NCBI GenBank assembly: GCA_021774075.1
Contig: JAJFJK010000185.1
Coordinates: 1-42,165 of the forward strand
Length of the DNA: 42,165 nucleotides
DNA from: Nitrosomonas sp.
GTDB taxonomy: Bacteria > Pseudomonadota > Gammaproteobacteria > Burkholderiales > Nitrosomonadaceae
Reading direction: 5' to 3'
Shown here: one piece after another, positions 2 through 31,280 of the stretch
How the letters are laid out: every line of letters starts with the position of its first letter
How positions within the stretch are numbered: the first letter of the stretch is position 1
Program-made: the position numbers and the translations under genes
The notes under the pieces: model-generated
Databases searched by the model: none
What the model was told of the DNA's origin: nothing
What the model saw: only the letters and a program-made list of their open reading frames with translations

Positions 2-859
2 ATGCTGTTTATTACGGCTGGCATGGGTGGCGGAACCGGTACAGGTGCAGCACCCATTGTGGCACAAGTCGCCAAGGAAATGGGCATCCTGACAGTAGCC
101 GTGGTCAGTAAACCATTTGCATTTGAGGGCAAGCGTTTGAAAGCAGCACAAATTGGCATGGAAGAACTATCTCAACATGTTGATTCATTGATTGTTATTC
201 CAAATGACAAATTAATGATGGTGTTGGGTCACGATATCAGCGTGCTGGATGCGTTCAAGGCGGCCAACGATGTGTTGCATGGCGCAGTAGCGGGTATTGC
301 GGAAGTCATTAACTGCCCAGGATTGGTAAATGTCGATTTTGCCGATGTGAAAACCGTCATGTCAGAAATGGGTATGGCAATGATGGGCTCCGCAGTTGCA
401 TCCGGCGTGGATCATTCACGTATCGCAGCGGAACAAGCTGTTGCAAGTCCGTTATTGGAAGACATTTCTTTATCTGGCGCACGGGGCATCTTGGTTAATA
501 TTACTGCCAGCTCAGTATTGAAAATGCGTGAAGTGCATGAAGTGATGACTACCATTAAAGAACTCACCGCTGAAGATGCAACCATCATTATCGGTACAGT
601 GATCGACGAAAACATGGACGATGACTTACGCGTAACAATGGTTGCAACCGGACTTGGGCATCTAAGCAATCAGGGGCAAACAAAACCGTTAACCGTTGTG
701 CATAGACGCAGGGGTACAGATGATAAGGCAGAAAATTACGCAGATGAGCTAGCAGTAATGCTCACCGGCAGAAGAAGCAATGCCACCGTGGCAGCCATGC
801 GCCAATCGGGTGTTGATCCAATGGATATTCCTGCATTCTTGAGAAGACAGGCGGATTAA
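2..859 (+). CDS. ftsZ: Cell division protein FtsZ (5' truncated by window edge)
   Basis: FtsZ is the tubulin-like GTPase that forms the cytokinetic ring. The reading frame is open to the left edge, so roughly the first 100 residues are missing. The visible part begins just before the tubulin signature GGGTGTG (visible residues 9-15). It continues through the T5/T6 region (PNDKL, DAFKAANDVL) and the domain containing NVDFADVKTVMSEMG and LRVTMVATGLG. After a short variable linker it ends in DIPAFLRRQAD, the conserved tail that binds FtsA and ZipA. The upstream division genes lie outside the window. No lpxC follows, although lpxC often lies next in this cluster in proteobacteria. The family call is secure from sequence. 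Confidence 0.96.
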   Translation: MLFITAGMGGGTGTGAAPIVAQVAKEMGILTVAVVSKPFAFEGKRLKAAQIGMEELSQHVDSLIVIPNDKLMMVLGHDISVLDAFKAANDVLHGAVAGIAEVINCPGLVNVDFADVKTVMSEMGMAMMGSAVASGVDHSRIAAEQAVASPLLEDISLSGARGILVNITASSVLKMREVHEVMTTIKELTAEDATIIIGTVIDENMDDDLRVTMVATGLGHLSNQGQTKPLTVVHRRRGTDDKAENYADELAVMLTGRRSNATVAAMRQSGVDPMDIPAFLRRQAD

Positions 860-1234
860 CGGTTTTCAGGACATGGTTTTGGGTATTGGACTTTAGAGCT
901 GTTGTAAATGGTGTTTTGTATCATTTAGTGCTATCGGCTAAGGATAAGACACAACTTGGGGTAATGGCAATTCATGCAGTCTGTCGGGTTTAAGTGTGCT
1001 CACTTAACTTATTCTGACAGACTGTTGGTGTGGGATAAATCACAGCATTACTCACCGAGTAGGTGGATAATTTCATTGCGTTACTGGCTCGTTTAATGAC
1101 CAATTACAGTATATTGAGTCCAGTATTGAACAGCGCTTCCTTAACCTAAATTTTGTTTGTAACGGTTATTGCTTGTTGAAGAAATTTAAGGCTAAGTAAC
1201 TGCATTCGTTTTTCTCATTATGGAGGAGCGCGGA
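860..1234. other. Intergenic region with bipartite hairpin after ftsZ
   Basis: This 375-bp stretch shows no coding evidence. It contains a two-part inverted repeat. The outer arms CAGTCTGTC (977-985) and GACAGACTG (1016-1024) pair perfectly. Inside them TTAAGTG (990-996) pairs with CACTTAA (1001-1007) around a 4-nt loop. No T-run follows, so it is not a standard intrinsic terminator. It may still be a transcript end for ftsZ or a protein-binding site. Confidence 0.5.
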
Positions 1235-2263
1235 ATGGATTCTTATCTTGTGACTGGACCAACTGGTTTTCTGGGCTATCATGTAATCAAACTGCTAAAT
1301 GCGCGTGGTATCAAGCCTCGGGTGTTATTGCCAACCGGTGTTGATCCAAACTCGCCAGCGTTAGAAGCTTTGAATAAGCAAGATGTCATGCCGGTTGAGG
1401 GGGATATTAATGATCGGGAAAGATTGCAGGCCGCTTGTAAAGATATCGATATTATCTTGCATTTGCATTTTGCAATTACATTGGCGGGTGGTGAGCAAGC
1501 TGATAAGTTGTTGCACGAACATAATGTACTCGGTACACGCAATCTGTTTGAAGTTGCCACTAAAGTCGGTGTTTCGCGTATTGTTGTAAGCAGCAGTTCG
1601 CTTGCGGTGGGTTTGCATCATGACCCTGAACCGTTGGACGAGACGGCGGATTGGGAACAGTATCATTTTTCACTGCCTTATGCCGTGTCGCGACGTGATG
1701 CCGAACAGTATGTGTTGACACAAACTGCACCCGGACTTCCAGAAGTGGTGGTGGTTTGCCCATCTTTTACCTTAGGCCCTGAAGACTGGGGCGGCTCAGC
1801 ACCAGCCAACAAATTGGTCATGAGAATGAGCAAGCCTGGTTTTCACATTACAGCGCCCATTGGTTTTGGCGTGCTTGATGTGCGTGATTACGCTGAAGGT
1901 GTTTTGCATGCAGTAGCGCATGGTACACCGGGCCGTCGTTATATTCTTAGTGGCGACAACATAACACCTGATCAATTGACCGCGCAAGTTGCGAAAGCTG
2001 AAAATTTTGCGCCGCCGAAATGGCAATTTTCTATACGTTCCTGGATGATCACACCCATTGTGGCCATTCTTGCCATATGGAGTAAGCTTACCGGTAAACC
2101 AGCTAAAGTATCGCCAAGTATCCTTGAGTTATGGGGACGTTATGCCTGGTATGATACCGCTCGGGCACAGGTTGAACTGGGCTGGAAACCGCGTCCGCTA
2201 CAAGAAACATTGCGCGATACGATTGAATGGCATCGTGAGGATAAGCACAAATCTGCTCTGTAA
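1235..2263 (+). CDS. NAD(P)-dependent epimerase/dehydratase (extended SDR)
   Basis: This 342-aa protein belongs to the extended short-chain dehydrogenase/reductase family, which oxidises, reduces or epimerises sugar-nucleotide, steroid or flavonoid-like substrates. The Rossmann motif TGPTGFLG is at the N-terminus, a Ser-rich strand (VVSSSS) precedes the active site, and PYAVSRRDAEQY occupies the usual YxxxK position, so Lys is replaced by Arg. I start it at ATG 1235 rather than 1220. The GGAGGAG at 1222-1228 is then a well placed ribosome binding site, and the Rossmann strand begins at once. The C-terminal substrate domain (WYDTARAQVELGWKPRPLQETL) is typical of the family. The gene stands alone between two noncoding stretches and its substrate cannot be predicted. 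Confidence 0.85.
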   Translation: MDSYLVTGPTGFLGYHVIKLLNARGIKPRVLLPTGVDPNSPALEALNKQDVMPVEGDINDRERLQAACKDIDIILHLHFAITLAGGEQADKLLHEHNVLGTRNLFEVATKVGVSRIVVSSSSLAVGLHHDPEPLDETADWEQYHFSLPYAVSRRDAEQYVLTQTAPGLPEVVVVCPSFTLGPEDWGGSAPANKLVMRMSKPGFHITAPIGFGVLDVRDYAEGVLHAVAHGTPGRRYILSGDNITPDQLTAQVAKAENFAPPKWQFSIRSWMITPIVAILAIWSKLTGKPAKVSPSILELWGRYAWYDTARAQVELGWKPRPLQETLRDTIEWHREDKHKSAL

Positions 2264-2368
2264 ATCAAATCAATCTGAGCATTTTTTTTCAATTTTTATC
2301 GTTCTAAACTGACGCATTCTGCAATTGAATGAATTCCGGCAGCTGGGCTTTCTGGAATGTCGGTTTTC

Positions 2369-2545
2369 GGCCCAGACTGTGTGAAAACTCAAAAATCCGA
2401 ATCGAAGTAAAATTAATTCCCACAGCTTGTCATAAATAGCTCAAATATCTGTTTGTATTTTCCACTTTTCAAGCAAAAAAGTAATAAATCTAGGTCGTGC
2501 TTACCACAAGAAATTTTAACAAAGAGTTTTCACACAGCCTGGGCC
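2369..2545. mobile_element. 177-bp MITE-like element with 22-bp terminal inverted repeats
   Basis: The ends are inverted copies of a 22-bp sequence starting GGCCCAG and ending AAAACTC (2369-2390 and 2524-2545), with one mismatch at position 8. The interior is AT-rich and has no open frame. The same terminus recurs alone at 11683-11704. This is the structure of a non-autonomous miniature transposable element. No clear target duplication is visible, and the parent transposase is not in the window. Confidence 0.7.
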
Positions 2546-2991
2546 AACAACAGCCGGTCACCAGTTTCCCGTGAACGGCTGGTTAACCTTGAAAAACAGC
2601 CATTCAGCAAATCCTTATTTTTATATCTATAAGTATAAAAGTTAATGAGTTTATTAATGCTCTATCGAGGTGTTGTGATCGCTTCGGAGTGATAGCAAGT
2701 AGCATGGAAATCAAGTCTATTGGCGGAGTTATCCTGTAAAGTTACTTTATTGTATTAATACCAATCTAGACAGCGCAGCTTTGCTGTGTCCTTGTTTGAA
2801 CTCCTGTTGAGTGGTTCTGCTACTTGTTGAGCAGAGTGAGGATAATACCAATAGCATAGATATATACTAGCAGCCACAAAGATCACATGCGATCGTTTTA
2901 TAGCATAAGTCGGCATGGATGCCCTTGGAGCGTGGTGTTGTAATAGGAAAATTACCGGCAGCCAACTAAACGAACGTAACTGGAGAAAACA
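2546..2991. other. Noncoding region upstream of the MBL-fold gene
   Basis: I see no gene here. A hairpin with 11-bp arms and one mismatch lies at 2551-2581 (CAGCCGGTCAC / GTGAACGGCTG), next to the MITE-like element. The decamer TAATACCAAT occurs twice, at about 2757 and 2843. The promoter of the following gene must lie here, but I could not choose a -35/-10 pair. Confidence 0.4.
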
Positions 2992-4005
2992 ATGAAAATG
3001 ATTAATAGCAGTAATATATTATTGATGGCAGCTGTTTTGCTCCTATCGACGAATGCACTAGCCACTGAATTTATCTATAAACCTGCTTCGACGACTGAAA
3101 TAGCGGTTAACTTGCAGAAGGTTGAAGGGGGGCACCTTGAGCGATTTAAAAAACCATTCGAAGTGCAACGTTTAAGCAAAAACATATACTGGGTTTCCGT
3201 TGCTAACTACAACTTAACCGTACTTGTTGGCGAAACAGGCGTTCTGCTTATTGATGCTCCGATTCATACGGGTAAACGAGTTTTAAAAGCTATAAAAGTG
3301 ATCACAGATAAACCGCTCCGTGCGATTGTTTACTCCCATGCACATGCCGATCATGTGGGTGACTCGAGTGTGATATTAAAAGAGCTTGGTGATAAAAATA
3401 TCGATATATACGCGACTGATGAAGTTCGGGATGCATTGATCTCTCATAACGTGACCCTTCCAGCACCGGTTACCAAAATTATTTCGGATAAGCTGGTTTT
3501 TGAAGGACACACTTTTGATGTGTATAAGAACTTCGATGGCCATACCTCGGATAACACCGTATTTTTGATTGAAGATGGTGGCCGCAAGATATTACACGCG
3601 ATTGACCTGATTCACCCTGATCAGTTGGAGTTCAGAAGCTTCTCGAATGTTGAAGATGCCATCGCATATAAAAACGATATAGATTATCTGCTGTTGATGG
3701 ATTGGGATGTGATGGTTACCGGTCATAGCAATCTGGGCTACAAAGAGGATGTGAAATTTGTTCAGGAATACATTCGGGATATTCAAGGTTATATTCACCA
3801 AGGCCATTCGAAAGCCGACTTCTCTGTTCATCTGAAAAGCGATACGCCGTTTGCCTGGTATGCCGGTTATAGCGATGAGGTCATTGATTTTGCAACCAAT
3901 TTGCTGGCTGAGAAATATCGCGAAGGTCGAGAAGAAGAATTCGATATTGTCGCCAAGTCTCATGTGGAAGTCCTATTCTGGGCAATGCTCGCCCGTGCAC
4001 TCTAG
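2992..4005 (+). CDS. Secreted MBL-fold metallo-hydrolase
   Basis: This 337-aa protein has an N-terminal signal peptide (hydrophobic core LLMAAVLLLSTNALA, cleavage probably after ALA at about residue 24), so it acts in the periplasm or outside. It carries the full metal-binding set of the metallo-beta-lactamase fold: HAHADH at 116-121, His184 in DGHTSDN, Asp205 in LHAIDL and His245 in VTGHSNLG. It should therefore bind two metal ions, probably zinc, and be catalytically competent. A GGAG ribosome binding site precedes the ATG. The C-terminal part resembles periplasmic MBL-fold hydrolases of unknown substrate. Beta-lactamase activity cannot be concluded. It is monocistronic between noncoding regions. 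Confidence 0.88.
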   Translation: MKMINSSNILLMAAVLLLSTNALATEFIYKPASTTEIAVNLQKVEGGHLERFKKPFEVQRLSKNIYWVSVANYNLTVLVGETGVLLIDAPIHTGKRVLKAIKVITDKPLRAIVYSHAHADHVGDSSVILKELGDKNIDIYATDEVRDALISHNVTLPAPVTKIISDKLVFEGHTFDVYKNFDGHTSDNTVFLIEDGGRKILHAIDLIHPDQLEFRSFSNVEDAIAYKNDIDYLLLMDWDVMVTGHSNLGYKEDVKFVQEYIRDIQGYIHQGHSKADFSVHLKSDTPFAWYAGYSDEVIDFATNLLAEKYREGREEEFDIVAKSHVEVLFWAMLARAL

Positions 4006-4098
4006 CGAGTAGCTCAATCATTAATTCAGACAGTATTTGATTCGTGCAATGGGATCGATTTCAATCCATAGCACATTACAGCTTATATTCTAGCCTAT

Positions 4099-4146
4099 GT
4101 TCTGGTTCTGGTTCTGTTCCTGTTCCTGTTCCTGTTCCTGTTCCTG
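4099..4146. repeat. Hexanucleotide tandem repeat, 3x GTTCTG then 5x TTCCTG
   Basis: Three GTTCTG units (4099-4116) run into five TTCCTG units (4117-4146), eight hexamers in total just downstream of the MBL-fold gene. The period of six is not a CRISPR spacing. Such a tract can change length by slippage. It lies in noncoding sequence, so no phase-variable product is implied. Confidence 0.85.
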
Positions 4147-4156
4147 TGTTCCCGGT

Positions 4157-4190
4157 ATCACCTTAACTTTTATCCAGAAGTTAAGGTGAT
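4157..4190. terminator. Perfect 13-bp hairpin downstream of the MBL-fold gene
   Basis: ATCACCTTAACTT (4157-4169) and its exact reverse complement (4178-4190) flank an 8-nt loop. The position, about 150 bp after the stop codon, suggests a transcript end. There is no strong T-run on either side, so intrinsic termination is only a possibility. Confidence 0.45.
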
Positions 4191-4428
4191 TTATTGCGCC
4201 AGTCCAAGAAATAATGTAAGCGAGCGATTGACATGGATTAGTGCATCATCATCAATTTTTCCAATGGTCGAGCTGATAGTTCGAGTTGGCCCAACGGAAT
4301 AGACTGTCCGCTTTCCGTAGTATGTTGCCATTCGAAAATATAGATTGAGTGGCTCTTCAGGGTCGAATGCCGACTGCACGACTTGGTTGTACTTTAAGTC
4401 CCAAATGTCAGATCACATGTGAGCCAAT

Positions 4429-4482
4429 AGAGTTTAGCTTGTTAGAGTTTAGCTTGGTAATCACACCAATAAAGTTTAGCTG
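4429..4482. repeat. Three direct copies of A(G/A)AGTTTAGCT
   Basis: Copies lie at 4429-4440, 4444-4455 and 4471-4482. The first and third are also preceded by CCAAT. Spaced short direct repeats in noncoding DNA beside an attachment-site-like sequence could be recombinase or regulator binding sites, or simple decay products. Nothing else identifies them. Confidence 0.5.
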
Positions 4483-4631
4483 AACGAGTTATGCTGTCAA
4501 ATATTGAGCTTATCGGGATAAGCAGCAAATAATTCTGTTGAGGCTACTATACAATTGCTTGAGTATTATTGTTGGTGGAGAGTGTCGCAGTTCTAGATAA
4601 GCTGATAACGGCACGTTTCGCCACCCAAGCT

Positions 4632-4667
4632 TTAAAAAGAAAAAGGCCCGCATCGCTGCAGGCCTTT
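4632..4667 (-). terminator. Rho-independent terminator after the tRNA-Asn fragment
   Basis: On the minus strand a GC-rich stem (GGCC and GC pairs around one mismatch, 4645-4651 with 4658-4664) is followed by a T-rich tract, TTTTTCTTTTT. It lies directly downstream of the tRNA-like 3' end, as a tRNA terminator should. It was probably inherited together with the tRNA fragment. Confidence 0.65.
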
Positions 4668-4674
4668 AAGTATA

Positions 4675-4719
4675 TGGCTCCCTGACGAGGGCTCGAACCT
4701 CGGACAAACGGATTAACAG
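4675..4719 (-). tRNA. 3' fragment of tRNA-Asn, probable attachment-site remnant
   Basis: Read on the minus strand, these 45 nt match the 3' part of a tRNA-Asn(GUU). They hold CTGTTAATCC (anticodon GTT with the 3' anticodon stem), a variable loop, a T arm with intact stem CGAGG/CCTCG around TTCGAGC, and the acceptor strand ending GGAGCCA. Upstream of the anticodon loop the similarity stops and unrelated AT-rich DNA follows, so the D arm and the 5' acceptor strand are absent. It cannot be a working tRNA. A tRNA 3' end cut at the anticodon loop is the classic product of tyrosine-integrase insertion, that is an attL or attR core. No integrase gene is present, so this looks like a scar of a lost or rearranged element. 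Confidence 0.8.
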
Positions 4720-4747
4720 GTGTTTTAATACACCATTTTATAACTAT

Positions 4748-4790
4748 TACACTCGCCAGTGCTCGCCAACGCTCGCTAACAATCGTCATT
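4748..4790. repeat. Four degenerate 10-bp tandem repeats beside the tRNA fragment
   Basis: The units ACTCGCCAGT, GCTCGCCAAC, GCTCGCTAAC and AATCGTCATT follow each other with exact 10-bp phasing, about one helical turn. They sit about 30 bp outside the cut end of the tRNA-Asn fragment. That is where integrase arm-type or excisionase sites are found in tRNA-targeting elements, so a recombination-protein role is possible. Confidence 0.5.
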
Positions 4791-4799
4791 TTTGTCACA

Positions 4800-5217
4800 C
4801 TTTATTTTAATAACTGTAAAAACTCTGAATGGCAATTGAATAATCTCAACAATTCCTGGCTGTCCATGCTGTTGTATACAAACTATTTAATCTTGACATT
4901 CGCTAAAAATTATTCGGATTTGAGGCAAGGAGCCTTTGCATTTTGGTAAAAGGTTACGTTAGCATAAAGGCGATAATTCCCGAGTTTGGTGCCCTACAAA
5001 AAATTAACTTGGCAATACCACACTGATACACATTGGACGCTCAATTCAACAATTAATTGCGACATAGCCAATTAAATTGTGGTGCAATTTCTTATGTAAC
5101 GATGAAACATTGCCAACTAGCAATCTTGTGGCAAGGCTGTGATTAGGTTGCCAATGCATAATTAATTCCAAGGTGATTGCGTTCTCGCCTTGTAACTTAA
5201 TTATTGATAAGGAGCCA
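4800..5217. other. Noncoding region before the secreted protein gene
   Basis: No supported gene is seen in these 418 bp of AT-rich DNA. TTGACA near 4894 could be a -35 element, but no good -10 box lies at the expected distance. Several CCAAT/TTGGCA-like words occur without clear symmetry. Confidence 0.35.
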
Positions 5218-5220
5218 ATG

Positions 5221-6381
5221 ATGAAACAGAACAATATACTGCTCAATATTGCACTATTCGCTGCAATCATGTTTGCAACGTTTGCGCAGGCAGCCGATGA
5301 GCCTCAACTTAATGCGAACTCTGGGGAATATGTCTTGAATATTCCTTATTTTGAGTTTGATACAGCCGAAGGAAAACAAGCCTATGAAGTAATTCTAAAA
5401 GCACCTTTGAATGAGAGCCCCATATTTTCCGTAGACTTTTCCAGCCTTAAAATGAGGCCTCTAGGTAATCTTCCTGTTATTTCTGGTAGTAATATCTGTC
5501 TTAAAACAGCACATGGTTCTTTTTTATCTTGTCAAGCAGAAACAAAACTGGATTATACGATTGACATGGCACGATGCATTAATAGCAATGAGCCTGATTG
5601 TGCTGAAGAAATTGAAGAAGCCTATACTGATGAAACCAAGGAATGCCAGGCAATTAATCAGGCAAGAATTGAACTGTGCGGCATCATGGGCGGTGACGCT
5701 TATTTGCCTGACTTGGATCCAAATGACTTTATTGATCCGACAACAATTACAACGGCAAATGCTAATCCTTACTTTCCTTTGGTGCGCGGTAACACATGGG
5801 TATATGAAGCAGGTGAAGAGACTGTTACGGTAACAGTTACAGATCAAACAGAAGTCATCCAAGATATTACTGCAGTGGTTGTGCGTGATGTGGTTTCCAT
5901 AGATGGCGAATTAGTTGAAGACACTAATGATTGGTATGCACAAGATAAAGACGGTAATGTATGGTACATGGGGGAATTGTCAAAGAATTTTGAAGATGGG
6001 CGGCTGGATGATCTGGAAGGTTCATGGAGAGCGGGTATTGAATCAGCGCAGCCAGGAATTCTTATGTATGCCCACCCAGAAGATCATATTGGAGAAACAT
6101 ATCGTCAGGAATTTCTACCAGGCGAAGCTGAGGATTTTGCGAGAATTCTTTCTGTCAGTGCATCAACAGCTAATGAAAATTTTTCTTGTAGTGGTAACTG
6201 TCTGCAAACCTATGAAAATTCTGCATTTGAACCGGTCGGCTTTGGGGATTTCACGCCTGAACATAAATTCTATTTGCCTGGTGTTGGCAAAATTCGTTCT
6301 TTCCACGTTAATCCTGAGACGGGAGAATTAGCTGAAGGTGAAGATGTGGAAGAATTAATTAGTTTCACACCAGGTTCTTGA
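5221..6381 (+). CDS. Secreted protein of unknown function
   Basis: The product is 386 aa with a clear signal peptide (NIALFAAIMFATFAQA, cleavage about residue 24). Its first half contains several Cys residues and acidic stretches. The second half, from NPYFPLVRGNTWVYEAG, has a beta-rich look with motifs VRDVVSIDGELVEDT and DWYAQDKDGNVWYMGE. This pattern recurs in secreted proteins of many bacteria annotated only as hypothetical. I choose ATG 5221, because AAGGAG at 5209-5214 is six bases upstream and the neighbouring ATG at 5218 would be too close. It is monocistronic, and convergent with the TonB receptor gene. Confidence 0.8.
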   Translation: MKQNNILLNIALFAAIMFATFAQAADEPQLNANSGEYVLNIPYFEFDTAEGKQAYEVILKAPLNESPIFSVDFSSLKMRPLGNLPVISGSNICLKTAHGSFLSCQAETKLDYTIDMARCINSNEPDCAEEIEEAYTDETKECQAINQARIELCGIMGGDAYLPDLDPNDFIDPTTITTANANPYFPLVRGNTWVYEAGEETVTVTVTDQTEVIQDITAVVVRDVVSIDGELVEDTNDWYAQDKDGNVWYMGELSKNFEDGRLDDLEGSWRAGIESAQPGILMYAHPEDHIGETYRQEFLPGEAEDFARILSVSASTANENFSCSGNCLQTYENSAFEPVGFGDFTPEHKFYLPGVGKIRSFHVNPETGELAEGEDVEELISFTPGS

Positions 6382-6496: not shown

Positions 6497-8779
6497 TTAG
6501 AACACTATCGATACCGACCCAAGAATACTACGTGGCGTCCCCGGCATGAAACGCAAACCACTGGTTGATACGAAATAGTGTTTATCAAAAATATTTTGCG
6601 CGTTTAGCTGAAAATGAAGCGTCGCGTTGTTAAACTTGTATTTGTAGCCTGCCATTAGGTTCACGACTGCATAACCTGGCGCTTGAGCCGTATTTTCAAG
6701 GTTAGCTTGCCGTTTGCTAACTGCATTCACACCGCCGCCCAGTCTAAGCCCGTAAAGCATGCCTTTTTGTATTTCATAGGTCGTCCACAAACGGGCATTG
6801 TGGCGTGGCACATCATCGAAACGTTGCCCTGTATTACCAGCACCAGTCCCGATAACATTATCTTCGTCGTCTAAAATGAGTGTTTGATCCTGAATAATCT
6901 TTGCAAATGGCGTATAAGCATAGGCCCCGATGAGACGCCAGCCAGGTAATAATTCACCTTGCATATCAAATTCAATACCACGAACTGCCAACTCACCGAC
7001 AGTACGCGAAAAAAAAGGATTAATCGGGTCAGGTGTCGCGACATTTTGCTTCGTCAAATCATAGTACGCAATGGTTGCTAAGAATTTTCCATTCAAGAGT
7101 TCAGATTTTATCCCCACTTCCCATTGCTGCGCACTTTCTGGCGGCAGCTTTCCACCTTGTCGTGCAAGACCGTTTGAGCCACTATAATTTTCAGTATAAC
7201 TGCCATATAAAGACAAAACAGGGATTGGGCGCCATAACAGTCCTGCACGCGGTGTTAGTGCGTCATCACGTGGCTCACCGGTTGATTCGCCACGTTCAAA
7301 CTCGCGTGAGCGAATGCTATCGTAGCGAAAACCTGCCAATACATGAAAATGATAGGGCAGTGTCATCTGATCCTGTAAATATAAGCCAAACCAGTCCTCC
7401 GTTTCGTCGATATCATCGCCGGGAAAATCACGTGAGGGATCGATCGGCGGCGGGCCGCCTGTTTGATAGATCGGATTAATGATATTGAGTGCATTAAATT
7501 CCAATTCATCTTCAGACTCCTCAACAAAACCCCAACGTGTATCTTCCCTATAATAGTCGCCGCCCATCAAAATTCGATGTTTGACGCCCCAGGCTTCAAA
7601 ATGTCCGGTCAAATCAACCACCGTATAATACGACTCGTTGCGGGCATTGCGTAAATCTTCCAGCTGCCGTCTGACTGAACGGCGGTCATCAGATAAAACA
7701 GGGCCTGAAAACGGTGTGGTTACGTTAATTACTTCTGAGCGGAGGATTTCAGTGTTAAAGCGGTGGCGAATTCGCCAGTTATCGTTAAATGCATGGCTCC
7801 AATTGAGGCCCACAACCATATCATCGTATTTCGCCCGGTTAAAAGGCTCACCGAAATATCTACTGCGCGGCACATCCAGAGGTCTATTGCCATCTGCCGG
7901 GATACCATAGTCCGGTGTATTCTTACCTTGTAAATAATCGAACTCCAGATTGATTTGTGTGCGTGGACTAATATCCCAACGCAATACGGGCGCAATAAAA
8001 ATACGTTCACCCTGTACAAAATCACGAAATGAACCGGCATTCTCGTGTGCAAGATTAAAGCGATAACTGAAACCAGCACCAAGCGGGGCTGTTGAATCCA
8101 GCGTTGTGCGATAAAAATCGAAGGAGCCAAACTGCTGCTCGATTTTATGCAAAGGGGTTGATAGCGGTTTCTTGGTAACCATGTTGATGATGCCGCCTGG
8201 CTCAGCCTGTCCATACAATATGGAGCCCGGCCCTTTAAGCACCTCAACCCGTTCAATATTAGCCATATCCCGGCGCCCATTGGAATTTTGATCTTCAAAA
8301 CGGAAGCCATCCCGAAATGGAAACACTTGAAAGCCGCGCAAAGTTATTCCATCAGCAAGTCCGGCATTAGAGACCTCTTGATTAATGCCACTGACATTCT
8401 GCAGCGCCTGATCCAAGCGTATCACCTGCTGATCACGTAACACTTGTCCAGGCACAACCTTAACCGAAAAAGGCGTCTCCATAATCGGTGTATCTGTTTT
8501 GGTAGCCGTGCCGATATTTGGTAGGGCATAAGAAGACCCTTCGGGATCGGGCCGCCCCTTTATGATGATGGGTTCCAGAACTGTCTGTTCACGCTGTACA
8601 ACATCGGACGAGTTGATTTTATGATCGCCCGAGTGCGAACCGGCAACCTGATCTGCGTTTGTCAGCCCACAACCGACTATATTCACAATTAAAAAAGCAG
8701 CCCTAAAAATTAGTCCATGCATAGTGACCATAGTAGTAGGAAGGTACCATTTTTTCACTTGGATTATGGCTGGCTGCAA
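6497..8779 (-). CDS. TonB-dependent siderophore-type receptor
   Basis: This 760-aa outer-membrane receptor should import a ferric siderophore or similar chelate using TonB energy. After a signal peptide (AAFLIVNIVGCGLTNA) comes a TonB-box-like stretch (EPIIIKGR). The plug domain follows, with TPFSVKVVPGQVLRDQQ, LDQALQNVSGI, NIERVEVLKGPGSILYGQAEPGGIINMVTKKP, here quoted only as landmarks within residues about 95-205. The 22-strand barrel fills the rest and ends in Phe (SIVF), as barrels do. The ORF opens at a TTG. GTG 8758, ATG 8731 and ATG 8722 are alternative starts, and no strong ribosome binding site decides between them. It lies 52 bp after a sensor kinase gene, so it is probably the target or partner of that two-component system. 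Confidence 0.93.
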   Translation of the reverse strand: MQPAIIQVKKWYLPTTMVTMHGLIFRAAFLIVNIVGCGLTNADQVAGSHSGDHKINSSDVVQREQTVLEPIIIKGRPDPEGSSYALPNIGTATKTDTPIMETPFSVKVVPGQVLRDQQVIRLDQALQNVSGINQEVSNAGLADGITLRGFQVFPFRDGFRFEDQNSNGRRDMANIERVEVLKGPGSILYGQAEPGGIINMVTKKPLSTPLHKIEQQFGSFDFYRTTLDSTAPLGAGFSYRFNLAHENAGSFRDFVQGERIFIAPVLRWDISPRTQINLEFDYLQGKNTPDYGIPADGNRPLDVPRSRYFGEPFNRAKYDDMVVGLNWSHAFNDNWRIRHRFNTEILRSEVINVTTPFSGPVLSDDRRSVRRQLEDLRNARNESYYTVVDLTGHFEAWGVKHRILMGGDYYREDTRWGFVEESEDELEFNALNIINPIYQTGGPPPIDPSRDFPGDDIDETEDWFGLYLQDQMTLPYHFHVLAGFRYDSIRSREFERGESTGEPRDDALTPRAGLLWRPIPVLSLYGSYTENYSGSNGLARQGGKLPPESAQQWEVGIKSELLNGKFLATIAYYDLTKQNVATPDPINPFFSRTVGELAVRGIEFDMQGELLPGWRLIGAYAYTPFAKIIQDQTLILDDEDNVIGTGAGNTGQRFDDVPRHNARLWTTYEIQKGMLYGLRLGGGVNAVSKRQANLENTAQAPGYAVVNLMAGYKYKFNNATLHFQLNAQNIFDKHYFVSTSGLRFMPGTPRSILGSVSIVF

Positions 8780-27691: not shown

Positions 27692-27724
27692 GCGAATACT
27701 AATGATTCATATGGGAAAAGAATC

Positions 27725-30127
27725 GTGGCGGATAAAACACAGGATATTCATGCAGATCATGGTGGCGTGAGCGTTGGAGAGAATAACGGATCAATCACTG
27801 TCAACAATCAATCTCTTATCCAGCAAGGCCTGACTGATGAGGCTATTCAGGAACGAGAAACCCACTATCTGAGGCGGGTGGTCGAAGATTGTGGTGGGCT
27901 GGAATGGTTGGCTTTGATGAATCTGGAAGAAGGCGACGGCAGTATGCGGCTGGATGCAGTGTATACCGCATTACTCACCGAAACGCGCCATGAGCAGGAA
28001 ATAACCGACGCCGGGAATAGGGAGCGCGCAACGGAAGACCCGGTCAGGCAGGGGCGTTTATCTGCGGTAGAGCTGTTGAACCGTGAACAGCGGTTGGTGT
28101 TGTTGGGTGATCCTGGTAGCGGCAAGAGTGCTTTTGTTAATTTCGTGGCACTGTGTTTAGCGGGTGAACCGCTTGCAGGAGCGGTCAATCTGCAAACATT
28201 GACGCAGCCGTTACCGGACGATAAAGGCCGACCACAAACCCGTGAAATTGAAGTCGAAGGTCAAGACGAACCCATTCAAGAGGAAGTGCTGCAGGATTGG
28301 GATAAAGGGGCACTCATTCCATTGCGGGTTATTCTGCGGGATTTCTCAGCTTCCCCCTGTTTTCCAAAAGCGTCCGACAAGCCAGAGACAAAGCATTTGT
28401 TGGAATTCTTGCAACTGGATTTAAAGAATAAAGGTTGTGAGGAATATTACCAGGTGTTGGAAGATCGCCTGCGAGCAGGTCGGGTGTTGGTGATGCTGGA
28501 CGGATTGGACGAAGTCGCGCAGGCGGGGGACAGACGCAAACACCTGGTGGCCGGTATAAATGAGTTTGTTAAAAGCTTTGGTGACTGCCGGTTTCTGGTG
28601 ACCTGTCGTCCTTATGCCTACCGCAACCGTGAATGGCAGCTGTCCCAATTCGCTTCCAGTGAACTGGCGGTATTTGGACGAGGACAGATAATTCGTTTTG
28701 TTGAACGCTGGTATGCGCGATTACCAACATCAGACAGACACGCGACCATCAAAAGCGGGCAAGATCTGCAACAAGCTGTGTTGAGCCGTCCCGATTTGCG
28801 GGATTTAGCCAAGCGTCCTTTATTGTTGAGTTTGATTGCTTATTTACATGCGTATCGTCATGAATTGCCAGGGCACCGCGCTGATTTGTATGAGCGCCTG
28901 TTGGGATTGCTGGTGGATAAATGGGAGAAAGCCCGTTTTAATGTGGCCGATGGTGATGCAGATAAAGCGAAGCAATTGGCGCAGGCCAGTCTGGCGGAAT
29001 TTCTGCAAATTGGTCAGGATGCGATTCGCAAAGTTTTGGAGCGGCTAGCTTTTCGGGCGCATCACTTGCAGGACGAAAAACAAGATACTGCCGATATTGC
29101 GGCCAAAGACCTGAATCATGAATTGTTGTGTGAGGCCAAGCGAAAGAACCAAGACGTGAAGGTTTGGGAGTTATCGGAATATCTGCGCGATCGGGTTGGT
29201 ATTCTGTATCAACGTGGCGGCAGTAATGAAACGGATGCCATTTATACCTTCCCGCATCGTAGTTTTCAGGAATATCTAGCTGCGGCCTATTTACGGCGAG
29301 AAGAAAACGCATTGTTTGAACCGTTTGTCGGCATGGTTGACGAGTTGGAAGAGGGCACCTGGCAGGAATTGGCCGCACAATTGGGGCGTACAGACCCGGA
29401 TCGTTGGCGGGAAGTAGTGGTATTAGCTGGCGGCATTAATGCGCGGTCTGATCCTGGCCCGGTGTGGAATTTGCTGAAAGCACTGGCTGATCGAAAAGAC
29501 GCGGCAGAGCTGACTGAGCCTGAAGCCTGGGGGTTACGCCTGGCGAGTGAAATTTTAGCGGAAAGCGTGGCGTTGGACGGCCTGAACCCTCGGCAGCAAA
29601 AAATCTTCAACACCATTCAGAGCGCCATGCCGGAGGTTTTAGCGACACCGTATTTGGTCGCCAAAGAACGCGTTGTTGTAGGGCGCTATCTGAACAAAAT
29701 CGGCGACCCTCGTGCTGCATTAACCGATGTGGATGCGATGCGGTTTTGCCCTGTGCCTGCTGGGTCTTTTTTCATGGGGCAAGGAGAGCATGATAGTGAG
29801 AAAGAAGCTTGGTCGGCAGAAACGCCTGCAGGTGAATATGATCTGAATTATGATTACTGGATAGCACAATACCCGGTGACGGTGGCACAGTTTAAAGCGT
29901 TTGTTGACGACAGTGGTTTTGATATTGGCAATGCTGATGCTTTAAAGACTTCTGCCAATACCCCTGTGGTGTACGTGTCTCAAAAGGATGCTTTAGTTTT
30001 TTGTGATTGGCTCACTGGGCGCTGGCGTGTCTCCTTGCCTAATGAACCGGAGTGGGAAAAAGCTGCACGCGGTGGTTTGAAAGTTCCTGGCATACCTACA
30101 TTGCTAGTGCTGCCGAAGTATTTGTAG
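27725..30127 (+). CDS. NACHT NTPase with start of C-terminal FGE/C-type-lectin-like domain
   Basis: This 800-aa STAND-class NTPase resembles bacterial NLR-like immune sensors. Residues 7-28 form a Gly/Asn-rich hairpin-like motif (DIHADHGGVSVGENNGSITV). A helical segment follows, then the NACHT core with Walker A GDPGSGKS (128-135), the diagnostic Walker B VLVMLDGLDEV (254-264) and a sensor-like TCRPYAYR. From about residue 550 there are helical repeats. From about 675 a formylglycine-generating-enzyme-type domain begins (PVPAGSFFMGQGEHD, YWIAQYPVTVAQFKAFV, LPNEPEWEKAARGG). It stops early, because the frame shifts near 30098-30100 and the domain continues in another frame to 30531. The start is GTG 27725. 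Without the shift the protein would be about 935 aa. A binding rather than catalytic role of the C-terminal domain is inferred. Confidence 0.88.
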   Translation: MADKTQDIHADHGGVSVGENNGSITVNNQSLIQQGLTDEAIQERETHYLRRVVEDCGGLEWLALMNLEEGDGSMRLDAVYTALLTETRHEQEITDAGNRERATEDPVRQGRLSAVELLNREQRLVLLGDPGSGKSAFVNFVALCLAGEPLAGAVNLQTLTQPLPDDKGRPQTREIEVEGQDEPIQEEVLQDWDKGALIPLRVILRDFSASPCFPKASDKPETKHLLEFLQLDLKNKGCEEYYQVLEDRLRAGRVLVMLDGLDEVAQAGDRRKHLVAGINEFVKSFGDCRFLVTCRPYAYRNREWQLSQFASSELAVFGRGQIIRFVERWYARLPTSDRHATIKSGQDLQQAVLSRPDLRDLAKRPLLLSLIAYLHAYRHELPGHRADLYERLLGLLVDKWEKARFNVADGDADKAKQLAQASLAEFLQIGQDAIRKVLERLAFRAHHLQDEKQDTADIAAKDLNHELLCEAKRKNQDVKVWELSEYLRDRVGILYQRGGSNETDAIYTFPHRSFQEYLAAAYLRREENALFEPFVGMVDELEEGTWQELAAQLGRTDPDRWREVVVLAGGINARSDPGPVWNLLKALADRKDAAELTEPEAWGLRLASEILAESVALDGLNPRQQKIFNTIQSAMPEVLATPYLVAKERVVVGRYLNKIGDPRAALTDVDAMRFCPVPAGSFFMGQGEHDSEKEAWSAETPAGEYDLNYDYWIAQYPVTVAQFKAFVDDSGFDIGNADALKTSANTPVVYVSQKDALVFCDWLTGRWRVSLPNEPEWEKAARGGLKVPGIPTLLVLPKYL

Positions 30128-30531
30128 AACATGATTGCCGGACGAATGACCTGCAAATCAATGCACAACCTCAGCGGCGCTATCCGTGGGGTAATGAGAT
30201 TGACGATGATTGCGTAAATCATGATATGAAGGTAGGGGAGACCTCAACACCTGGTGTCTATCCGCAGGGTATCAGCCCTTATGGCTGTCATGATCTGGCG
30301 GGGAATGTTTGGGAATGGACGCGCTCTGATCGAGGTGATTACCCGTATCCAGCCATCGATACAGCAGCGTGGAAGCAACGGGAAAGCGGAGGTTCTGCCG
30401 TTTGCGTGTTGCGCGGCGGTGCGTTCAGCAACCTTCACCGCAACGTGCGGTGCGCTGTTGGCTACGACGGCAGGCCGGACGACCGTTACAACTTCATTGG
30501 GTTTCGCGTTGTTTTGTCCCCATTACGCTGA
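30052..30531 (+). pseudogene. Frameshifted C-terminal part of the NACHT protein's FGE/CLec-like domain
   Basis: From about 30100 this frame continues the domain interrupted in the preceding gene (IASAAEVFVEHDCRT, QPQRRYPWGNE, GVYPQGISPYGCHDLAGNVWEWT, CVLRGGAFSN, IGFRVVLSP). Restoring one base near 30098-30100 would join both halves. The residues before 30100 in this frame are not homologous, so it is not a separate gene. The last 40 residues (30421-30495 especially) have the arrangement of a diversified C-type-lectin ligand site. Conserved RNVRCA, RPD and IGFRVV words alternate with positions S, L, H, V, G, Y, D, Y and F, nearly all encoded by NNC or NNT codons. The shift may be real decay, a sequencing error or recoding. 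Confidence 0.8.
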
Positions 30532-30627
30532 CCGATGAAATCTCTGGACGATGGGACTCTGAAATTTTTGTTAATATCATGCTGGGTGAGCCAGTGTTTT
30601 TAATCATTTTTTGTGAAGGAGAATGCC

Positions 30628-31002
30628 ATGCCCATGATTGATATTCCGACGACGGTGAATGTGCTGGTGACCTATTTTGCGTTGGGTGAAACGGAAGCAG
30701 CAGTGGAAGTTGCTAGAAATATGGTGAATAAGATATCTTTAACTGTAGAGGGTTTTCTGAAGTTGAAAGATGATTTGCAGCAAATGCCGGAAGTCGCAGA
30801 GAAGATTAGGGCATTTCAGAAGGACCCGCAAGATAATGATTTGCAAATGCAGTTAAGTGAGATGCTGACGCAAAAGCTGGAACAGCACCCCGCATTTCAG
30901 CAAAACACGGTGCAGGTGCAAGGCGATATCAAAGCGGATAACGGGAGTGTTGCTGTAGGGATAAGTACTGGCGATATTAAAATCGATAATACTTCCAAAT
31001 GA
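30628..31002 (+). CDS. Small helical protein with C-terminal Gly/Asn-rich motif
   Basis: The product is 124 aa. Residues 1-88 look helical and amphipathic (TVNVLVTYFALGETEAAVEV, VEGFLKLKDDLQQMPEVAEK, LSEMLTQKLEQHPAF). Residues about 95-121 form a beta-hairpin-like sequence (TVQVQGDIKADNGSVAVG, then GDIKIDN) similar to the N-termini of the flanking NACHT proteins. Start ATG 30628 is chosen because AAGGAG stands six bases upstream; the frame opens earlier at GTG 30613. It overlaps the next gene by 4 bp (ATGA). Position and architecture suggest a partner of the NACHT sensor. A Bell-type effector with a bacterial amyloid signalling sequence is one reading. No enzyme motif is visible. Confidence 0.7.
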   Translation: MPMIDIPTTVNVLVTYFALGETEAAVEVARNMVNKISLTVEGFLKLKDDLQQMPEVAEKIRAFQKDPQDNDLQMQLSEMLTQKLEQHPAFQQNTVQVQGDIKADNGSVAVGISTGDIKIDNTSK

Positions 31003-31280
31003 TCAGTGCAGGAAATATCAAATCGGGCGGGGGTAGTGTTGCGGCTGCCTCAATCAGCGATAGCTTGATTATCATCATCAATGAAAGCGGCTCCAAATTG
31101 ACCAAAAAACAGGCGCTACAGCTTGAGGCGCATTATCTGAAACGCATGATGCAAGATTGCGCTGGTTTGGAGTGGTTACGGCTGGTGCGCAAGCAGGATG
31201 AAAATACAGTCAGTCTTGGGTTGGATGCGAATTTTCAATTTTTTGCCAGGGACAAGCGAACCTATTGCATCAATTCCTGA
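30999..31280 (+). pseudogene. Truncated N-terminus of a second NACHT-type protein
   Basis: The 93-aa frame begins with the Gly/Ser/Asn hairpin-like motif (MISAGNIKSGGGSVAAASIS). Residues 40-76 closely match residues 43-78 of the NACHT protein at 27725 (HYLKRMMQDCAGLEWLRLV against HYLRRVVEDCGGLEWLALM, then LGLDA against MRLDA). After LGLDA the similarity ends abruptly in an unrelated tail of about 17 residues and a stop. The Walker motifs are never reached. It is thus the stump of a paralogous sensor, joined to other DNA at about 31228. It could still be expressed as an adaptor, because its start overlaps the previous stop codon. Confidence 0.75.

Follow-up and report, generated by a model that had tools for sequence, protein, structure and literature searches.

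The 72-nucleotide segment at 30427-30498 is very likely the variable repeat (VR) of a target of a diversity-generating retroelement (DGR) that is now orphaned and probably fossil. It lies in a window of 42,165 nucleotides, the whole stretch of Nitrosomonas DNA analysed here, which corresponds to a single contig (C96) of a draft genome assembly (3.49 Mb in 225 contigs, 91% complete). The initial annotation had proposed a 'remote or fossil DGR target', and this is the best reading of the pattern of changes among four copies of the segment, of a bAvd remnant beside one of them (in genome G016) and of the intact DGRs with FGE targets found elsewhere in the genus. Read in this way, the locus is a DGR-diversified immune-type sensor in decay, where the scar of the machinery can be read although its template was not found, and where the VR is recognisable through cross-species comparison alone.

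Gene architecture and the putative variable repeat

The features of the locus are as follows.

27725..30127, + strand: open reading frame with a NACHT domain (PF05729, 4.8e-10) and the N-terminal half of an FGE-sulfatase domain (about 29750-30085; PF03781, 1.6e-19)
30090..30150, + strand: region in which the window loses frame against Nm51 and G016 (three-way alignment; two open reading frames in different frames)
30130..30531 (open frame from 30052), + strand: C-terminal half of the FGE-sulfatase domain, in the other frame (PF03781 positions 128-254, 3.3e-16)
30398..30426, + strand: 5' flank of the putative VR, 29 nt, identical in the window, G016 and Nm51 (alignment)
30427..30498, + strand: putative VR of 24 codons (72 nt), with 16 columns showing at least three bases among the four copies
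30499..30553, + strand: conserved 3' block, extending beyond the stop codon at 30529-30531 (four-copy comparison)

The first open reading frame carries a Walker A motif (GDPGSGKS) and a Walker B-like motif (LVMLDGLDE). The FGE-sulfatase profile is split, with positions 7-127 matched within 27725-30127 and positions 128-254 in the other frame. The segment had been described as the C-terminus of the NACHT protein, which does not hold: it is out of frame with the NACHT reading frame, and the change of frame falls inside the FGE domain. NACHT and FGE are thus both encoded at the locus, but a single NACHT-FGE reading frame is absent. The VR does form the C-terminal end of a domain with the CLec/FGE fold, though its frame is split from that of the N-terminal half. 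In the alignment of the window with G016 and Nm51, the gaps at 30090-30150 in the window sum to a length that is not a multiple of three. This frameshift could be an assembly error.

The sole relative of the protein returned by a scan of named genome contigs is in Nitrosomonas sp. Nm51 (69% identity in the best segment). Genome G062 and Nm51 carry the same cassette sequence and are counted as one copy. The C-terminal half (30130-30531) is 67% identical to G016 and 66% to G062. Outside the cassette the gene has diverged, with 50-87% identity to Nm51 per 100-nt bin over 27700-30400 and 53-78% to G016 over 29900-30400. The 3' block of about 55 nt, which may be an IMH-like constant sequence at the 3' end of the VR, is nearly identical in the window, G016 and Nm51, and the similarity of the window to the others stops at ~30555. 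Over the 60 nt from 30499, G016 differs from the window at 2 sites, Nm51 at 7 and G006, the fourth copy, at 8; G006 also has 4 differences within the last 21 nt of the 5' flank. Altogether, 67 of the 81 flank columns are invariant across the four copies.

The changes within the VR are concentrated at the first two codon positions. Columns with at least three bases among the four copies make up 16 of the 48 at positions 1-2 and none of the 24 at position 3 (Fisher p 5e-4, with columns of related sequences being non-independent trials). The window and G016 differ at 20 sites of positions 1-2 and 4 of position 3, against 22 and 34 in the 231 nt upstream (p 2.6e-4). The corresponding counts are 18 and 8 against 29 and 37 for the window and Nm51 (p 0.025), and 22 and 8 against 30 and 36 for G016 and Nm51 (p 0.009); these pairwise p-values are mutually dependent. 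When the NACHT part serves as the reference for the window and Nm51, the same test gives p 0.018. G006 was left out of the pairwise upstream tests because its upstream gene is lost.

The codon make-up remarked on in the initial annotation is likewise not due to chance. Fifteen of the 24 VR codons are NNC, compared with 141 of 787 in the in-frame portion 27725-30085 (binomial p 1.6e-6) and 21 of 99 in 30130-30426, and none of 9925 overlapping 24-codon control stretches (from stop-to-stop frames of at least 200 codons in the window) reaches 15. The other three VRs have 12, 14 and 12 NNC codons of 24. Template AAC or AAT codons rewritten at their adenines would yield such an excess.

The words CVLRGGAF, RNVRCA, RPD and IGFRVV listed in the initial annotation are present, encoded at 30403-30513. 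The stated invariance of RNVRCA fails for its R (CGC/GAT/GAC/AAC) and its N (AAC/GTC/TGC/GAT), both of which vary across the four copies. From the list of variable residues, V has to be removed, as it is V in every copy; G does vary, with GGC at VR codon 12 where the three remaining copies have CGC or CGT, a substitution that seems not to stem from an adenine. There are also 4 to 8 position-3 differences per VR pair. Adenine mutagenesis of one template explains neither these nor the GGC codon, and diverged templates or later drift are therefore assumed.

FGE-type domains are common enzymes, as the PDB matches indicate, and the invariant words are partly family consensus, so that ordinary divergence of such a domain with no DGR history deserves consideration. 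However, this would have to account for a stretch changing at codon positions 1-2 that sits between flanks identical at synonymous sites and beyond the stop codon, for the NNC excess, and for the bAvd remnant that adjoins the G016 copy. Ordinary divergence is therefore highly improbable.

Conservation past the stop codon (30531-30553) is a feature of the window's VR class, and by eye the class of FGE genes ending in GFRVLCSSPIE behaves likewise. A hairpin after the VR is unsupported (DNA fold of 30490-30560, z -0.36), and Rfam at gathering scores has no match in the window or in loci L071 and L027. Further downstream, a 129-aa open reading frame (30613-31002) between the NACHT/FGE gene and the frame 30999-31280 has no match in Pfam or NCBIfam. 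The frame 30999-31280 resembles the N-terminus of the NACHT reading frame (39% over 54 residues, E 4e-10) and may be a second copy of the NACHT gene, cut short.

Related copies and their decay

BLAST places the cassette in 4 of 85 Nitrosomonas genomes: that of the window, G016, G062 and G006. Every one of these copies is broken. The NACHT part of G016 cannot be aligned before about 29900, and the FGE part contains an in-frame TAA. The Nm51 copy is divided between two frames and also has a TAA, and in G006 hardly anything beyond the cassette remains.

Downstream of the VR in G016 is a 52-codon frame that appears to be a truncated bAvd. It resembles Avd by its matches to the model NF033474 (E 1.5e-7, 31.7 bits versus a cut-off of 80) and to PF22296 (E 0.03, 15.2 bits, cut-off 40), both below the curated cut-offs. 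A relative of this remnant follows the VR in G006 (76% identity over 33 residues, with two stops). No counterpart in Nm51 came up in the search; by eye, some dozen codons from the start of the remnant can be recognised there. There is no bAvd trace in the window, and bAvd sequences of the genus have no match in its genome assembly. By analogy with the intact loci L077-L079, we infer that the ancestral order would have been NACHT-FGE(VR), bAvd, template and RT.

The gene neighbourhoods differ among the copies. The Nm51 and G006 copies appear by eye at opposite ends of one four-gene cluster, and the four sites are therefore not all unrelated. The presence of a unit of flanks plus VR in differing neighbourhoods of four Nitrosomonas species, in G006 nearly without a target gene, could mean that VR cassettes outlive the element and travel apart from it, with the conserved stretch past the stop serving as a recognition mark that lets an incoming DGR rewrite the gene end. 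This is quite unlikely.

Template searches and DGRs of the genus

The statements that the window lacks an RT and a template repeat were both borne out: none of the RT_1 matches of the genome falls on the window's contig, and the template-repeat scan of the window was negative. A complete DGR is thus absent from the locus, with RT, template and accessory gene (bAvd or HRDC type) all missing from the contig. In the assembly holding the window, BLAST with the VR gave the VR itself and matches of 14-20 bases only, and a pattern search gave the VR alone. Among the 85 genus genomes, the pattern returned three VRs, BLAST four VRs, and neither a template. The pattern missed G006, and such patterns therefore overlook diverged copies. 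A sample of 399 genomes of the order, in which G016 and G062 were not present, gave the window VR and no template. IMG/VR, plasmid and phage records likewise held no template for the window VR, and a viral, phage or plasmid source was rejected for want of a match.

The search of the whole genome called for in the initial annotation gave a divided outcome, with an RT and a template on contig C157 and no repeat matching the window VR. The C157 DGR (237-6120, locus L027) consists of a template at ~237-390, an LRR-Roc-COR gene, an FGE gene, an HRDC gene, an RT with IGNLTSQ, which we take to be a mark of DGR RTs, and a second FGE gene. The VR of the second FGE gene and the template disagree at 14 sites, every one an adenine in the template; the template-VR scan did not pair the first FGE gene with the template. 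This DGR has an HRDC accessory in place of bAvd, and its template precedes the LRR-Roc-COR gene, away from the RT and near the contig end.

The C157 template was rejected as the source of the window VR (mismatches at 34 of 75 non-adenine sites, ungapped), as were 11 other genus templates (23-31 non-adenine mismatches, ungapped); these comparisons used the window VR only, leaving out those of G016, Nm51 and G006. This bears on whether the segment could be a remote target that is still active, receiving copies in trans from the C157 DGR or from one missing from the draft, with the frameshift an assembly error. The incompleteness of the 225-contig draft, the complete DGR on C157 and the trans activity reported in Thiohalocapsa (PMC10907252) speak for this. 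However, the available templates mismatch the VR, the assembly holds no matching one, and the related copies are broken as well, so that continued activity is unlikely and an orphaned, probably fossil target is preferred.

As a positive control, the template-VR scan was applied to 24 loci, 12 of which gave pairs. It retains a pair only if 75% or more of the mismatches fall on template adenines, and because of this filter the adenine bias of the pairs is partly by construction; in many of them, all 10 to 21 mismatches are at adenines. The scan also yielded one reversed pair and one VR-VR pair as by-products. At 1e-20, 19 of the 85 genus genomes match a profile built from four RTs, and the weak end of these matches may include non-DGR RTs. 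G016 has no match to this profile, while G006 and G062 (Nm51) have one each, away from the cassette. G032, G083 and G038 (L077, L078, L079) carry intact DGRs that have bAvd and FGE targets. Related Nitrosomonas species have intact, remote and broken DGR targets, and are therefore suited to studying their gain, use and loss.

Known systems and other loci of the genome

The window gene resembles the DGRs of G032, G083 and G038 in its FGE target and its variable stretch of 24 codons; those loci also have bAvd and an RT with IGNLTSQ. Unlike the window, they have another N-terminal part, a template that is present, and different constant sequence (the 23-31 non-adenine mismatches above). The C-type-lectin/FGE fold is related to that of the DGR variable protein TvpA of Treponema denticola (2y3c), which the Nitrosomonas FGE-domain profile matches at 1.6e-36; TvpA is absent among the matches of the window's own C-terminal half up to E 0.1. 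TvpA is not known to be a NACHT fusion.

NACHT- and STAND-CLec DGR targets, degenerate NACHT-CLec loci with missing machinery, and trans activity are reported in PMC10907252, where species of Nitrosomonas also appear among the bacteria that carry multiple DGRs. FGE-type domains and DGRs have been linked to conflict systems (PMC7159879). As in the NACHT-CLec targets described in PMC10907252, a NACHT domain lies beside a C-terminal CLec/FGE domain with a VR, and machinery is missing. Unlike them, the window gene is frameshifted and its template was not found, and target diversity there was measured in metagenomes. The gene is broken and a matching template was not found, and it therefore looks like a known kind of system in decay. 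Searches of the literature listed no title on this gene. The gene is a new example, in decay, of a kind already described, and the underlying biology is not new.

In the preferred reading, the VR encodes the ligand-binding face of a sensor domain of the FGE/C-type-lectin kind, once joined to a NACHT NTPase. As long as the element was alive, its RT, together with bAvd, would have made copies of a template repeat with mutated adenines, and these would have been written into the gene end. Such rewriting would have produced new ligand sites on a fixed scaffold, with the NACHT module then being switched by ligand binding. The target is orphaned in the lineage of the window and is probably fossil there. 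We infer here the make-up of the lost element, the ligand sensing and the end of rewriting.

Other FGE genes of the genome, on contigs C45, C135 and C212 and two on C48, finish in similar cassettes. The two gene ends on C48 (L028, about 4560-4690 and 6610-6735) form another VR class with constant words in common, and a pattern search for a template of this class returned only those two ends. The genes on C45, C135 and C212 (L029, L118, L117) end in GFRVLCSSPIE, like the bAvd-DGR targets of G032, G083 and G038, and on C212 a 95-aa RT fragment (L117:2569-2856) lies beside the FGE gene. The RTs on C112 and C149 were rejected as DGR RTs, as a group II intron model matched above its cut-off, and so was that on C99, whose best match is UG4. 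The C99 gene (839-1897, L003) encodes a UG4-type RT (PADLOC model RT_UG4, E 5.3e-119) and is a candidate defence RT.
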